In this document: one piece after another, positions 1 through 5,387 of the stretch | Numbering within the stretch: position 1 is the first letter of the stretch | Layout: each line of letters starts with the position of its first letter | Assembly (NCBI GenBank): GCA_028875875.1 | Contig: JAGWUV010000026.1 | Location: 1-64,000 of the forward strand | Reading direction: 5' to 3' | From: Bacteroidota bacterium | GTDB taxonomy: Bacteria > Bacteroidota > Bacteroidia > Chitinophagales > Chitinophagaceae | DNA length: 64,000 nt | Program-made: the position numbers and the translations under genes | The notes under the pieces: model-generated | Databases searched by the model: none | Told to the model about the DNA's origin: nothing | Seen by the model: the letters and a program-made list of their open reading frames with translations, nothing else

Positions 1-441
1 TGTTTCAAGCATCGTTAAATAGTCTGATTTAGAAAAATTGAGTTCTTCAAATTTGTCAAACCATTCTACTGTCGAGCCAACTTTTTCAGCTTCCCATTCT
101 TTTGTTTTATCAATACCAATTTGTTTCCATTGTATCAAGTCTCCACAATTTCTTACTTCAGCAACAATTAATGTACAAGAAAAGTCATTGTCGTCAGGAC
201 ACATAAGAATTGGGCAAATTGTCGTCTCGTTTTCGTTAGGTAAAATTCTTTTCCAAACGATTGCTTTTTCGTCCTCTCTTTCCATCCAGTAAACAAGTGT
301 CGGAATAAGTCCTTTATACATACTGTTCGGATAAATTTCGTCAAGTTTTTCGTCAAGCCAATATCCGTCAATATGAAAATTTATGAAGTCCCAATAATCT
401 TCATAATCACTTTTGTCTTGTATTCCTTCTATTCTGTTCAT
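1..441 (-). CDS. Hypothetical cassette-borne protein, 3' end beyond window
   Basis: An open frame of 147 codons runs without a stop from an ATG at 441-439 to the window edge, so the C-terminus is missing. The product is acidic and rich in Trp, Tyr and Asp (it starts MNRIEGIQDKSDYEDYWDF), with no signal peptide or membrane segment. I do not recognise the family. Codon use (many GAC and ACA codons, AT-rich) differs from the housekeeping genes further on. Its start lies about 20 bases after the GTTAGC end of the attC-like element at 461-655, which is where the first gene of an integron-type cassette would sit. A soluble accessory or immunity-like protein is possible but not supported by any motif. 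I am fairly sure the frame is real and have no functional call. Confidence 0.6.
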   Translation of the reverse strand, partial: MNRIEGIQDKSDYEDYWDFINFHIDGYWLDEKLDEIYPNSMYKGLIPTLVYWMEREDEKAIVWKRILPNENETTICPILMCPDDNDFSCTLIVAEVRNCGDLIQWKQIGIDKTKEWEAEKVGSTVEWFDKFEELNFSKSDYLTMLET

Positions 442-460
442 TGGGTTATTTTAAAATGAC

Positions 461-655
461 CGCTAACGAGCAGGGCTTTATGCAGGTTGGGAATTGTTAT
501 TCGTCCGCCCACAACCGCTGCTGATTGAAAATATAATGTTGAATTTAAGAACTAATGTTGAAAGTTGTTTGTCCAGCCCGAACCACAGCCTGGTTTTGCA
601 ATTGGTTGATGTTTGCTGGTCATACCCAACTTGCATAAAACCCAATGTTGGTAGC
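461..655 (-). repeat. attC-like palindromic recombination site
   Basis: The two 31-base ends, 461-491 and 625-655, are imperfect inverted repeats. About 22 positions pair, including GCTTTATGCAGGTTGGG against CCCAACTTGCATAAAACCC. Read on the minus strand the element opens with GCTACCAAC and closes with GTTAGC, the AAC...GTT polarity of integron attC sites. The centre of about 130 bases is not conserved between the arms. It lies directly between two unrelated genes in the same orientation, and the 9-base complement GTTGGTAGC recurs at 1254-1262 just before the next gene. The cores only partly fit the classical RYYYAAC/GTTRRRY consensus. Calling it attC-like rests on geometry and is an inference. 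Confidence 0.6.
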
Positions 656-673
656 AGTTATTCGCAATGTCAT

Positions 674-1228
674 TTAAACATTTTGTCGGTTTGCATTGAA
701 CTCTGTTAGTTTGTTTTCAAGTATGTTTTTAAGTTCGTCAAATTTGCATGCAAGTCCATTTGTAGAAATAGCGATTGGAGAACCGTAGCTTCGATAATTA
801 ATTCCCATGGTGCTGCGCTTTAAAGAATTCGTCTGTCTATCAATATAGTCTTGGGGATTATTAACAAGAAGCATTAGAAATTTCTGGTTAAAAACTTTTC
901 GCAATTTAATTTCTGAAATATCACTCCATGGGATGATACCAGCAGATACTCCACTTGAGTTGTCAATTATACCAGTGTCAGTAATTATTAATCCGGGCTT
1001 TTTGTCCTGAAGTTTTTTTATAAGAAAAATAAATACAATACCAAAAAATAAGATTGATATTATACCTACAACTTTAATAAAAATAGAGCTATTAAAAGGC
1101 GCAATATTCGATGTTGGTGTCCTGAGTAAAAACCAAATTCCAAGTCCAACGAAAGTTGCCGATCCAATTAGTGATAATGTCAATTTGCTTTTACTTAATT
1201 TGATTTCGATTTGTTTGTCGTTGTTCAT
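674..1228 (-). CDS. Membrane-anchored STM3941-family-like protein
   Basis: The 184-residue product has two hydrophobic segments near residues 14-32 and 46-66 followed by a soluble C-terminal half, a layout I associate with the STM3941 family of PH-like membrane proteins of unknown role. Clues are the N-terminal IEIKLSKSKL run and the PGLIITDTGI and IIPWSDISEI segments in the soluble part. I chose the ATG at 1228. A GTG at 1264 is in frame but would place the start inside the GTTGGTAGC cassette core. The gene sits between that core and the attC-like element at 461-655, so gene plus site form a cassette-like unit of about 795 bp. Family membership is from memory of the pattern and function is unknown. 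Confidence 0.65.
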   Translation of the reverse strand: MNNDKQIEIKLSKSKLTLSLIGSATFVGLGIWFLLRTPTSNIAPFNSSIFIKVVGIISILFFGIVFIFLIKKLQDKKPGLIITDTGIIDNSSGVSAGIIPWSDISEIKLRKVFNQKFLMLLVNNPQDYIDRQTNSLKRSTMGINYRSYGSPIAISTNGLACKFDELKNILENKLTEFNANRQNV

Positions 1229-1253
1229 AATTTTTAAGTTGTCATTTTTAATT

Positions 1254-1392
1254 GCTACCAACACCTAAATATACGCAATACAATCAAAATACATAAATCT
1301 TAAATACATTGATTATCAACACTTTTATATTGCGTTTTTTGTATTGACTATTGCGTCAATTGAATTTTCAATTTTTTTTCAACCACCAGCTC
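1254..1392 (-). other. Candidate primary insertion site (attI-like) beside the recombinase
   Basis: This AT-rich stretch separates the recombinase stop from the first cassette gene. On the minus strand it ends in GTTGGTAGC (1262-1254), the exact complement of the GCTACCAAC that opens the attC-like element. Next to it are three TATTGCG heptamers: one inverted at 1274-1280 and two direct at 1328-1334 and 1349-1355, 21 bp apart. Clustered short repeats next to a crossover core are what an integrase-bound attI region looks like. No protein-binding evidence exists here, so the assignment is inference. Confidence 0.4.
1273..1284 (+). repeat. 12-bp direct repeat, copy next to the cassette core
   Basis: ACGCAATACAAT occurs here and again, perfectly, at 2694-2705 on the other side of the recombinase gene. 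A second pair of longer near-repeats also brackets the gene: 1310-1331 and 3103-3124 share ATCAACACTT and 18 of 22 positions. The pairs could mark recombinase-binding sites or an old insertion boundary. Confidence 0.4.
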
Positions 1393-2565
1393 TTATTCTA
1401 AAAATCCTTTCTTCCAAAGATCATCTAAAGGACTAACAATGTTCACCAACGATTCTTTCTTCACATGCAAATAACGCTCCGTGGTTTTAATACTAAAATG
1501 ACCTAACAGGTCTTTGATATACCTAATATCAATTCCCTTCTCCAGCATATGTGTCGCAAAACTGTGCCGTAACGAATGAAAACCTACATCTTTCACTATT
1601 CCGGCTTTTTCCTTGGCCTGGTGAAAAATAAGCTGTGCACTTCTTATGCTATACGCCTGCCCCGGTACATCCCCTTCAAAAATATACGTTACAGGTTTCA
1701 CTTCGCAGGCTTTCAAATACGCTCTTAATATATCCAGCAGCAATATGCTCAGGTTCACATAACGGTCTTTCTTGCCCTTGGCCTGCTCAATACGTATCTG
1801 CATCCGCGAACTGTCTATGTCCCGTATCTTTAGTTTTACTACCTCACTAACCCGTAGGCCGGCACTGTATGCCGTAAATAAAATAGCTTTATGCTTAAGG
1901 TTATGAACTGCTTTGAACATCTTTCCCAATTCTGATTCTCCCAACACCTTCGGTAAAAGAATGGGTTTCTTGGGACGAGGAATTTCAAAAAACACTTTTT
2001 CCCTTCTTAATACCTGCTCATAATAAAACTTCAAAGCATTCATCCTGCTGTGTAAAGTATTTTCCTTGTATCCTTGTTCCACGCACCATACCATGTACCT
2101 CTTAATATGTTTATCCGTTAACGAATGTGCCGGAATTTGCTTAAGGGCATACAACAACTGCAAAAATTCATACTGGTAGGTTTTAATGGTAGAAGCACTG
2201 TATTTCTTTAACTGGAGATGATGCAGGAAATCCTTTAGTGCCTGCTTATTTTCCTCCGAAATGCGCAACTGGTCAACTTTTACAGCTGGTAACTTTTGCG
2301 ATGATACGATCACATCCACTTTGGCTGGCGTCGACTCCCGTAAAGCAACAGCAGAACCACCTGTTGCCTGTGGTACACCTGGCGATAACTTACACTTGGC
2401 CCTGTTTTCAGGCGTATCGGGTATCACCCAGCCTTTCCATGTTTTGCTCCATCTACAGCCGGCTACATTTCTGATACGCTCATTCCATGATGCGTTCGAT
2501 TCGAACTGCACCAGGATAACCGGCTTATTTCGGTGAATGATGAGCTGACAAACTATCTGCGACAT
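1393..2565 (-). CDS. Xer-like tyrosine recombinase (candidate cassette integrase)
   Basis: A 390-residue tyrosine recombinase. Residues 1-60 form a small N-terminal domain containing CRWSKTWKGWVIP, residues about 103-190 the SAM-like core-binding domain, and the rest the catalytic domain. The catalytic set is visible: R238 in YSAGLRVSE, a probable K264 in AKGKKDR, H330 and R333 in FHSLRHSFATH, H356 in LLGHFSIKTT and Y365 in TERYLHV. It is therefore expected to cut and rejoin DNA through a phosphotyrosine link. The extra helix that defines IntI integron integrases between the second and third patches is not present. The resemblance is to XerC/D. It lies directly upstream of the attI-like region and reads in the same direction as the cassettes. 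That it moves those cassettes is inferred from position. Confidence 0.9.
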   Translation of the reverse strand: MSQIVCQLIIHRNKPVILVQFESNASWNERIRNVAGCRWSKTWKGWVIPDTPENRAKCKLSPGVPQATGGSAVALRESTPAKVDVIVSSQKLPAVKVDQLRISEENKQALKDFLHHLQLKKYSASTIKTYQYEFLQLLYALKQIPAHSLTDKHIKRYMVWCVEQGYKENTLHSRMNALKFYYEQVLRREKVFFEIPRPKKPILLPKVLGESELGKMFKAVHNLKHKAILFTAYSAGLRVSEVVKLKIRDIDSSRMQIRIEQAKGKKDRYVNLSILLLDILRAYLKACEVKPVTYIFEGDVPGQAYSIRSAQLIFHQAKEKAGIVKDVGFHSLRHSFATHMLEKGIDIRYIKDLLGHFSIKTTERYLHVKKESLVNIVSPLDDLWKKGFLE

Positions 2566-3144
2566 ATACTCGGGTATTAGGGTAACAGTAGGTTGAACTA
2601 AAAGCCAATGCAGTTTAGCGCAGTATATTACTACACAAACAAAACGGAGGTATCATGAAAAAACGTGGACTATACTCAAAATAACAAAACCAAACGCAAT
2701 ACAATAAAGGCCTGTACACTTATTACGGCTCCGCCCTCTCAGTTACAATACTCCATTGCACAAAGGGCGAATCCGGGGTAACAACGCACTTCATCAACGA
2801 GTGCCGGACACTAAGAACGAATATAAGTTTTTTGGCACCCGTTTTCCAAATAATAAGGCAATTATTTTTCATATAAACTACCGTATTTTCCCCGGTCTCA
2901 TTCCCGAAGCTTTAGGCTATAAACATTTGACCGTTCCTTTCAATAGGGATCATTTGCCTTTCTAATCCGCAGTCCATAATTCATCAATTCATTAATTCGT
3001 CATCCGCAATCCGCAATTCGTTAATCCTCCTCCTCCCTTCCTTGTTACTCCCTATATAAGCCCTACATAAGCCGTATGGAGTTCATCAAAACAACAAAGT
3101 GCTGATAATCAACACTTAAGTATTCTATTGATTTTATAGAATAA

Positions 3145-3179
3145 TAATAACTAATTCATAATCAATAGATTAGTTATTA
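3145..3179. repeat. Perfect 11-bp AT-rich inverted repeat
   Basis: TAATAACTAAT (3145-3155) and ATTAGTTATTA (3169-3179) are exact complements around a 13-base centre. With no GC in the stem and no T run it is a poor terminator, so a protein-binding palindrome is more plausible. Confidence 0.5.
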
Positions 3180-3263
3180 ACGAGTACTCTTGGGTTAATA
3201 GGAAATCCGTCATTCTCCCATCCGTACTTTGTTCGATATTTCTTCGATATTTCTTCGGGTCGT

Positions 3264-3365
3264 GTTCGGATCGATCCTAAGCCGATCCGAACGATGTTCG
3301 GATCAGTATCGAACAAAAATGCTGAAAGCTAAGCCGGATAAGCCTTTCAAATTTACGATCCGAAC
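3264..3365. repeat. Cluster of four GTTCGGATC sites in alternating orientation
   Basis: GTTCGGATCG at 3264-3273 faces CGATCCGAAC at 3283-3292 as a perfect 10-bp inverted repeat with a 9-base centre. GTTCGGATC recurs at 3296-3304 and CGATCCGAAC at 3356-3365. Four copies in about 100 bp, preceded by two tandem TTCGATATTTC units, is well above chance for AT-rich DNA. Function is unknown. Operator cluster or mobile-element end are both possible. Confidence 0.5.
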
Positions 3366-3818
3366 AATATAGCCTTTTTACTACAATAAAACCTAGATAG
3401 GTAAGATAGCTGACTGTCAATGATTCATGACGAAAAAAATATAATTTAATCAGGTTATCGTTGCTGCAACTATTACACTCTCTTTTCCCTTTGTGCAGGT
3501 AACATTTTTACGCTGTGATGAAAGCGGCAACGGTTGAAAGCGTAGAAAGCCGCGTGTAACAAATAGCCTGCATATATTTTGATGTCGCAAGATGTTTGTA
3601 AAAGATGGCTTGGTATGGGTAAGGCGTACATTGTTGTTAATTACCGCTTTTTAAATAAGCCGTTGTAGCCCTTGTTATCAATAAACCCCATGCCCATGAG
3701 GATTCAAAACTATAATGCCGTAAAAGCCAGGAGGCCTGTAAGGCTTTTGCAACAGATATGCTGGCATTTTAAAATAAATCGTAGCGAGTTATTGGTGTTG
3801 GTTATAGCAAATACATAA

Positions 3819-3858
3819 GCAATAAAAAATCCCCGCACCGGCGGGGATTTTTTATTGC
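3819..3858. terminator. Strong bidirectional hairpin terminator
   Basis: An 18-bp perfect stem (3819-3836 with 3841-3858) closes a four-base ACCG loop. The inner part is the GC-rich CCCCGC/GCGGGG and the outer part is an A run on one side and a T run on the other, so it can stop transcription in both directions. It immediately follows the stop codon of the permease on the minus strand. Confidence 0.85.
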
Positions 3859-5387
3859 TATTCAAAGTCAGAAGCTTTCGGTATGATCTCTCCCGGAGAT
3901 TTTAGCTTACTATGTTTTTTACTGTAAGAAAAGTATACAATAAGGCCAAGCAGCATCCATGCAAACGCAACTTCTTTTGTTTTTGCATCAAGGCCTATGA
4001 TCATAGCTGCGCATATGATCACGCCTAAGGTGGATACAACAGGTACAATAGGTGCTTTGAAAGGGCGTTCGATAGTAGGTTCCTTTACTCTTAAAATCCA
4101 CACACCGGCACTCACCAGCACAAAGGCAAATAAGGTTCCGAAAGAAGTTAGATCGCCTGCTACACTGCCGGGAACAAATGCGGCAAATAAGCCAACAAAA
4201 ACAAACAAGATCATATTGGCTTTGTAAGGAGTTTTAAACTTTGGATGCAATTCTCCAAAGGCTTTTGGAATTAAGCCGTCATTACTCATGGTATAGAAAA
4301 TACGGCTTTGCCCCATCAGCATCACTAAAATAACAGAAGAGAAACCGGCCAAAATAGCAACAGTAACGGCTGTGGCCAACCATCCATAACCGGCCATATA
4401 AGTAGAGATAGCATAAGCTACAGAAGCTTCACGGCCTTTTTCAGGATCAACAAAATCTCTCCAGTTGGCAACACCTGTTAATACATGCCCAAATAAAATG
4501 TAGAGAATGGTACAAACCACTAACGAGCCTAAAATACCAATCGGCATATCTCTTTTAGGGTTCTTGGCTTCCTGGGCAGCAGTGCTAACAGCATCAAAAC
4601 CGATGAAAGCGAAAAATACAATAGCCGCACCACCTAAAATACCGCCCCATCCATGTTTGTTCCAGCCACTATAATCGGCAATGATCTTTCCGGCCTGGTC
4701 TTTCACGGCAGGTGTTCCGGCAGGAATTAAATAAGGGGTATGATTTTCAGGTTTGATAAACTGCCAGCCGATGGCGATGAAAAGAAGCACGATAGCTACT
4801 TTGATAAACACGATAACCGCATTAACAATAGCAGATTCCTGCGTGCCTTTGATCAATAAAAGCGTAAGAAGGAATAAAATGAATAAAGCCGGAAGATTGA
4901 TAATACCTGCATGATGCATACCCGCCGAATCGGTAAAACTTTCCAATGGCGAATGGCACCATTCATAAGGAATGTGGCCACCGAATAGTTTATTTAAATA
5001 TTCGCTCCAGGCAATGGATACGGTTGCGGCACCTAATGCATATTCCATAATTAAGGCCCATCCTATAATCCATGCAATCAGTTCTCCCATAGTAACATAA
5101 GAATAAGCGTATGCACTACCTGCAATAGGTATCATACTGGCAAACTCTGCATAACATAAACCGGCGAAAGCACAACCGATAGCGGCAATAATGAATGATA
5201 ATGTAACTCCGGGTCCGGCAGCTTCTCCGGCTGCCGCAGCTGTACGAACAAATAAACCTGCACCAATAATGGCGCCAATGCCTAATGCAACAAGGTTTCC
5301 TGCTCCCAGGGTTCGTTTTAATCCTTTCTCAGAATCAGCTGCCTGTGTAAGCAAGCTTTCTAACGACTTCTTTCTGAATAAACTCAT
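3858..5387 (-). CDS. APC-family amino acid permease
   Basis: The 509-residue integral membrane protein has about 12 hydrophobic segments and fits the APC superfamily, closest in feel to cationic amino acid (CAT/YfnA-type) permeases. The family's first-helix signature is clear in VALGIGAIIGAGLFV, followed by the GPGVTLSFIIAAIGCAFAGL region with CYAEFASMIPIAGSAY. It should import amino acids across the inner membrane by proton coupling. The exact substrate cannot be read from sequence. I start it at the ATG at 5387 (MSLFRKK) rather than the upstream in-frame Met, which would add 19 residues of unlikely sequence. It is transcribed alone and ends in a strong hairpin. Confidence 0.9.
   Translation of the reverse strand: MSLFRKKSLESLLTQAADSEKGLKRTLGAGNLVALGIGAIIGAGLFVRTAAAAGEAAGPGVTLSFIIAAIGCAFAGLCYAEFASMIPIAGSAYAYSYVTMGELIAWIIGWALIMEYALGAATVSIAWSEYLNKLFGGHIPYEWCHSPLESFTDSAGMHHAGIINLPALFILFLLTLLLIKGTQESAIVNAVIVFIKVAIVLLFIAIGWQFIKPENHTPYLIPAGTPAVKDQAGKIIADYSGWNKHGWGGILGGAAIVFFAFIGFDAVSTAAQEAKNPKRDMPIGILGSLVVCTILYILFGHVLTGVANWRDFVDPEKGREASVAYAISTYMAGYGWLATAVTVAILAGFSSVILVMLMGQSRIFYTMSNDGLIPKAFGELHPKFKTPYKANMILFVFVGLFAAFVPGSVAGDLTSFGTLFAFVLVSAGVWILRVKEPTIERPFKAPIVPVVSTLGVIICAAMIIGLDAKTKEVAFAWMLLGLIVYFSYSKKHSKLKSPGEIIPKASDFE

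Follow-up and report, generated by a model that had tools for sequence, protein, structure and literature searches.

The window, a stretch of 64,000 nucleotides from a bacterium of the family Chitinophagaceae (Bacteroidota), begins at base 1 of its contig (C44), where the readable sequence ends. Read on the minus strand towards this edge, it carries a tyrosine recombinase gene, an attI-like region, a gene for an STM3941-family protein, an attC-like element and the start of a second gene, followed by the end of the contig (Table 1). The window itself holds one complete cassette and the start of a second one, which is cut by the contig edge.

Table 1. Features of the proposed integron end, in minus-strand order (coordinates of the window)
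Feature	Position	Strand	Remarks
Tyrosine recombinase, 390 aa, proposed integrase	1393..2565	-	Catalytic set, profile searches, tree
attI-like region, recombinase stop to cassette 1	1254..1392	-	GCGTATATTTA at 1276-1266 and core GTTGGTAGC at 1262-1254
Cassette 1, attI-core TT through next-core G	467..1261	-	Extent deduced by the integron rule
Cassette 1 gene, STM3941-family protein	674..1228	-	Alternative upstream GTG start at 1264 possible
attC-like site	460..655	-	R'' 655-647, L'' 643-625, L' 491-473, R' core 467-460
Cassette 2 gene, 3' end past the contig edge, no family match	1..441	-	

The sequence GCTACCAAC (655-647) is the complement of the core GTTGGTAGC, and the next core reads GTTAGCGG (467-460). 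Core, complement and palindromic element lie where the original prediction had placed them, and its description of two unrelated, AT-rich genes in one orientation is borne out by the absence of a common family match and by 35-36% G+C DNA. The recombinase, likewise on the minus strand, has the orientation of the cassettes, as had been claimed, unlike in classical integrons. Upstream of the recombinase gene, about 1.3 kb (2566-3857) contain no convincing gene, the longest listed frames being 69, 52, and 51 aa. At the edge of this gene-poor stretch a permease-like gene starts at 3858; a perfect 19-base inverted repeat with a 4-base loop and T and A runs (3818-3859), which resembles a bidirectional terminator, adjoins this gene, named amino-acid permease-like from its sequence alone.

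By itself, the nine-base core pair is weak evidence: the window (64 kb) contains two copies of GTTGGTAGC where 0.26 are expected, and 4 of 100 shuffles likewise contain two. The single-strand folding of 461-655, put forward as a check, gave no support, as neither strand of the whole element folds with a better energy than its shuffles (z -0.40 and -0.83). An Rfam search of positions 1-5000 returned nothing above the gathering score. Since the core pair lies within chance and whole-element folding is not significant, the case for the window rests on comparison with other genomes. For this we used sets of 147, 295 and 395 genomes for the family, the class and the phylum, respectively, each an even sample of a larger group, with a single genome for each species. 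The DNA of cassette 1 matches only three of the 147 family genomes, including its own, the other two at 65-70% identity; a second, similar copy lies in the window's own genome (67% identity).

The attC-like element belongs to a family. Its DNA matches 64 of the 147 family genomes, with one near-full-length copy at 96% identity, and as a whole it is far beyond chance. In 31 aligned copies, the conserved block extends from AAC to GTT, while the flanks diverge. One genome (G028) shows eight matches in one orientation, spaced by roughly 0.6-1.7 kb and separated by small genes. In the window's own genome, two further attC-like elements lie on C45, a different contig from that of the recombinase (locus L007, G000:C45:18468-21490; about 1374-1575 and 2187-2385), the R'' of the second having no exact match to the preceding start. 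In addition, C16 carries a solitary half element (L002, 1503-1584) that follows a complete gene and shares 88% identity with the window element. Further copies of the arms, whose absence would have spoken against the original prediction, are thus present between small genes in relatives and on two other contigs of the same genome.

If cassettes move by way of circles joined at G|TT, the R'' of an element has to be complementary to the beginning of the cassette to which it belongs. This own-start rule holds, with at least 8 complementary nucleotides from GTT, in 48 of 97 consecutive element pairs, compared to about 3.2% after re-pairing; R'' complements the start of the next cassette in 3 of 38. 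The rule failed in the other 49 pairs. Matches amount to 31/39 at spacings of 150-700 bp, 9/18 at 700-1000, 6/20 at 1000-1600, and 2/20 at 1600-3500. As failures rise with spacing, an element has probably been missed in between, and the failing pairs are probably in part missed or false element calls. The R''/core pair of the window also fits the rule. All 48 validated cores start with GTTR, and 44 of the 47 with at least 9 nt read GTTRNNNGY. The core form of classical integrons is GTTRRRY, which is found in only three of the 48 and is thus not the form of these validated cores.

Chains were built from the own-start rule alone at 102 loci, many of which were picked for having elements. Eleven loci carry chains of at least four links, whereas the longest chain in 306 shuffles has three. 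Among 80 loci picked by recombinase alone there are six such chains, in Winogradskyella ursingii, Flavobacteriaceae S0862, Seonamhaeicola aphaedonensis, a Sphingobacteriales MAG, Bacteroidetes GWF2_41_31, and Algibacter onchidii. The chain test is identical on both strands and hence gives no orientation. Chain lengths reach 13 links in G091, one of them mis-set, and 8 in G028; the arrays of relatives comprise eight to about twelve linked cassettes in a window-like layout. Each of the seven linked units in S. aphaedonensis has one main open frame; no two of these frames are alike, and they all run the same way as the recombinase. The 7-link chain of A. onchidii (L194) begins about 1.2 kb past the recombinase, with no paired core within 400 nt. 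As judged from sequence, a layout like that of the window recurs in many related bacteria, e.g., S. aphaedonensis and W. ursingii, and tandem co-oriented cassettes, mostly with a single gene, lie between attC sites in these relatives. Stretches of about 600-1660 bp are common to array loci of different genera at 82-84% identity (G028/G078, G028/G081, G078/G131, and G091/G163), and a 475-bp unit recurs at four positions within a single array, with 94-100% identity.

The arms of the elements point to pairing within each site. In chain-derived elements, the mean fit of L'' is 13.1 to its own L' and 6.5 to those of others. Own L'/L'' pairing exceeds the 95th percentile of cross-pairs in 50 of 58 elements, the own arm being strictly best in 25 of 58; the two wrong elements of the mis-set link (in locus L103) are kept in this count and dropped from the strand-stability and gap counts. 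Differences of the A/G type give G.T pairs on the bottom strand in 98 cases, against 33 for the reverse. Computed arm stability favours the bottom strand in 50 of 56 elements, that of the element taken as a whole in only 38.

In classical attC sites, the bulges are extrahelical bases that IntI recognises, according to PMC3053210 and PMC7790495. The L boxes of the new sites are gapless in 34 of 54 cases, compared to none of 27 classical sites of the phylum under one alignment setting; 20 of the 54 and all 27, respectively, are gapped. Looser settings give 29/56 versus 147/150 gapped, in a set with many chance elements. Extrahelical bases as in the classical folded attC are thus mostly missing here, apart from the 20 sites that do show gaps.

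The recombinase had been predicted to have a full catalytic set and to lack the IntI-specific helix, and both statements stand: the residues R238, K263/K265, H330, R333, H356, and Y365 are present, and the insert is absent in alignments. From GLR to HxLR we count 94 residues in the window recombinase and 91-94 in 42 proteins of its family and near relatives, itself included. The corresponding distance is 133 in 8 of 30 IntI loci, of which 21 are without both motifs and one gives a false value of 475. Aligned to VchIntIA (2A3V), the window recombinase has 35 residues versus 75 in IntI, and the IntI patch with the I2 helix is absent from it. The mostly missing bulges fit an enzyme lacking the helix that would dock extrahelical bases. 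Absence of the helix and frequent absence of the bulges thus coincide; this is a correlation, and the 20 gapped cases remain.

Profile searches agree with this assignment. The IntI model NCBIfam TIGR02249 gives the window recombinase 172 bits at a cut-off of 265, and the Xer models also stay below their cut-offs (XerA_Arch 195.5 of 220, XerC 176 of 335, XerD 161 of 330). The best match among solved structures is the archaeal XerC-like 4a8e (E 1.3e-34). The protein ends in a C-terminal SPLDD and has an extra N-terminal domain of about 60 residues, predicted as beta-beta-alpha-beta-beta-alpha. Foldseek found no match for this domain at E<=0.001, SMARCAL1 HARP being second with E 0.51; rescoring of the Foldseek list by VIA-align gave no Z of at least 5 (best an archaeal initiation factor, Z 4.6), and the sequence search against solved structures reached E 0.13 at best. 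Pfam DUF5710 matches the domain in 18 of 31 members (best 2e-5), the window's own being unmatched.

In a tree of 104 rows, for which recombinases interrupted by internal stops were either given an X there or omitted, the IntI group (12 rows and one gammaproteobacterial IntI-like protein) has a support of 100/100 and the window clade (25 rows) of 100/99. The two are separate, the tree leaving the backbone order between clades unresolved; one of the 24 rows labelled as window family (L053) sits outside the window clade. A FastTree with 80 viral-contig relatives and other recombinases of the window's genome added recovers the 25-row clade with the same make-up and support 100, none of the added rows inside it, and IntI again apart, on one side of a branch. 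Of the grouping with prophage or conjugative-element integrases that would have contradicted the original prediction, the tree covers the viral side, where none of the 80 viral-contig relatives falls into the window clade. The branch that parts 37 array-linked rows from 13 IntI-group and 12 proteobacterial rows has a support of 27/71, at which one common origin can be neither established nor dismissed. By any test made on its sequence, the recombinase is not an IntI, and the suggestion of a system built on another recombinase lineage agrees with both the tree and the missing insert.

Recombinase and array are linked. Within 400 nt downstream of the recombinase stop, a paired core was found at 28 of 50 loci with enough sequence that are from Bacteroidota or unassigned, the latter including a Patescibacteria locus (L193) whose match may be chance, and at 4 of 61 upstream; the remaining 22 of the 50 lack one in this range. 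In other phyla, the counts are 1 of 33 downstream and 2 of 27 upstream. An attI next to the recombinase gene, as in an integron, is thus seen in the window and at the 28 loci. Related insert-less recombinases of Proteobacteria (L185, L186, L198, L206, and L212) have no paired core downstream, while a relative from the Bacteroidaceae, Mediterranea sp. An20 (L195), has one 41 nt past the stop. Comparison of the attI regions of 46 loci, some genomes occurring twice, yielded 20 distinct paired cores; 11 of these carry a narrow, TATATTTA-like pattern ahead of the core, and in the other nine it is missing or altered. Along this line, element and recombinase co-occur in the 147 family genomes, with both in 37, the element only in 27, the recombinase only in 18, and neither in 65 (Fisher p 7e-6; recombinase presence at E<=1e-50). 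Pieces of the recombinase remain in four of the 27 element-only genomes (G151, G163, G099, and G093). As to SOS control, the two LexA-like motifs reported for Bacteroidetes (PMC8565304) show no enrichment ahead of the recombinases, occurring in 0 and 2 of 42 where shuffles average 0.32 and 1.06.

The anatomy, the own-start rule, the linkage of paired core and recombinase, and the missing IntI insert are established by sequence comparison. We consider it very probable that the window represents the proximal end of a chromosomal integron with a non-IntI recombinase. By the evidence of attI, cassettes and own-start complementarity, the system would work like an integron, while departing from the classical core and bulge forms. 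The recombinase would integrate circular cassettes at the attI-like site 3' of its own gene and would excise or reshuffle them at the attC-like sites, with cleavage presumably falling at G|TT within the core GTTRNNNGY. Probably only one strand of the attC, the bottom one, would be used in folded form, R''/R' and L''/L' serving as its two putative binding boxes, and the choice of strand may stem from wobble versus mismatch pairs instead of L-box bulges. That the adjacent recombinase catalyses this movement we infer from the linkage.

With somewhat more doubt than confidence, we go further and propose that one widespread integron lineage recombines folded single-stranded attC without I2 and mostly without extrahelical bases, the strand being set by G.T wobble versus A.C mismatch, and that the additional N-terminal domain may take part in hairpin recognition. 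If true, single-strand cassette recombination arose, or persisted, apart from IntI. A different mechanism, which overlaps with the reading as a chromosomal integron in that the recombinase still moves the cassettes, is a double-strand, Xer-like exchange at the short cores, with the palindrome serving otherwise. The resemblance of the enzyme to Xer/XerA in lacking the insert and the 34 of 54 sites without bulged bases would suit such an exchange. Against it stand the complementarity of R'' to the own start, the fit of the arms and the asymmetry between strands, which are difficult to account for if no strand folds, and we regard such an exchange as unlikely.

The array might also be left over from classical integrons and depend for its movement on an IntI from elsewhere, with the adjacent recombinase an unrelated resident. 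Such an origin would account for the 27 of 147 genomes with elements alone, and classical IntI is common elsewhere in the phylum, where TIGR02249 exceeds its cut-off in 105 of 395 genomes, which indicates that the search works. However, this model is over its cut-off in none of the 147 family genomes (control genomes being silent as well) and in one of 295 of the class, the paired core follows the recombinase stop at 28 of 50 loci, and the L boxes are unlike the classical ones of the phylum; a relic is therefore very improbable. We give hardly any credence to the recombinase being the integrase of another mobile element, with the downstream site its own att and the array built by repeated integration, since, even though insert-less relatives occur on plasmids, on viral contigs and in other phyla, where paired cores are rare among those tested, most units of the two arrays read gene by gene contain one small gene and no further recombinase, and units end in attC obeying the own-start rule.

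An integron with a non-IntI recombinase would share with the classical ones (class 1-3, Vibrio chromosomal, and the IntI arrays elsewhere in the phylum) a recombinase with adjacent attI, co-oriented cassettes, palindromic attC with AAC/GTT ends, and the own-start rule. It differs in a recombinase outside the IntI clade, without the patch and co-oriented with the cassettes, and in the core GTTRNNNGY and mostly gapless L boxes. Treponema integrons are alike in that the integrase is transcribed toward attI, in cassette direction; their integrases are described as intI genes (PMC3607928), whereas the window recombinase lacks the IntI insert. With XerA, XerC, and XerD it shares the catalytic core, 4a8e being the best structure match, and is set apart by the SPLD C-terminus, the additional N-terminal domain and the array of linked cassettes. 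The window's genome encodes two further Xer-like proteins, which are far from it in the tree.

Three integron surveys recognise the integrase by its additional domain (PMC2426708, PMC8352920, PMC9668308). Surveys keyed on this domain would miss the window lineage or score its arrays as orphan attC clusters. For this large bacterial group, complete integrons were reported in very few cases by a survey of 2022 (PMC9024848); window-type integrons would open a cassette pool there. The titles and abstract openings searched, a range that leaves preprints and most subscription papers outside, contain no description of an I2-less integron of this group, which is a weak indication. According to the statements on I2 in an eLife paper of 2020, this helix gave IntI single-strand recombination, direct proof being lacking since deletion of I2 kills IntI1 (PMC7790495). 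A natural I2-less integron with mostly bulge-free attC would make this question testable.

Related recombinases without the IntI insert also occur on plasmids, one plasmid match overlapping an IS91-family transposase. A relative on a plasmid of Chryseobacterium sp. SNU WT5 (L357, NZ_CP041688.1), for which the chain test gives one link, precedes small genes, most of them co-oriented, together with genes for an IS110 transposase and for the reverse transcriptase of a group II intron.
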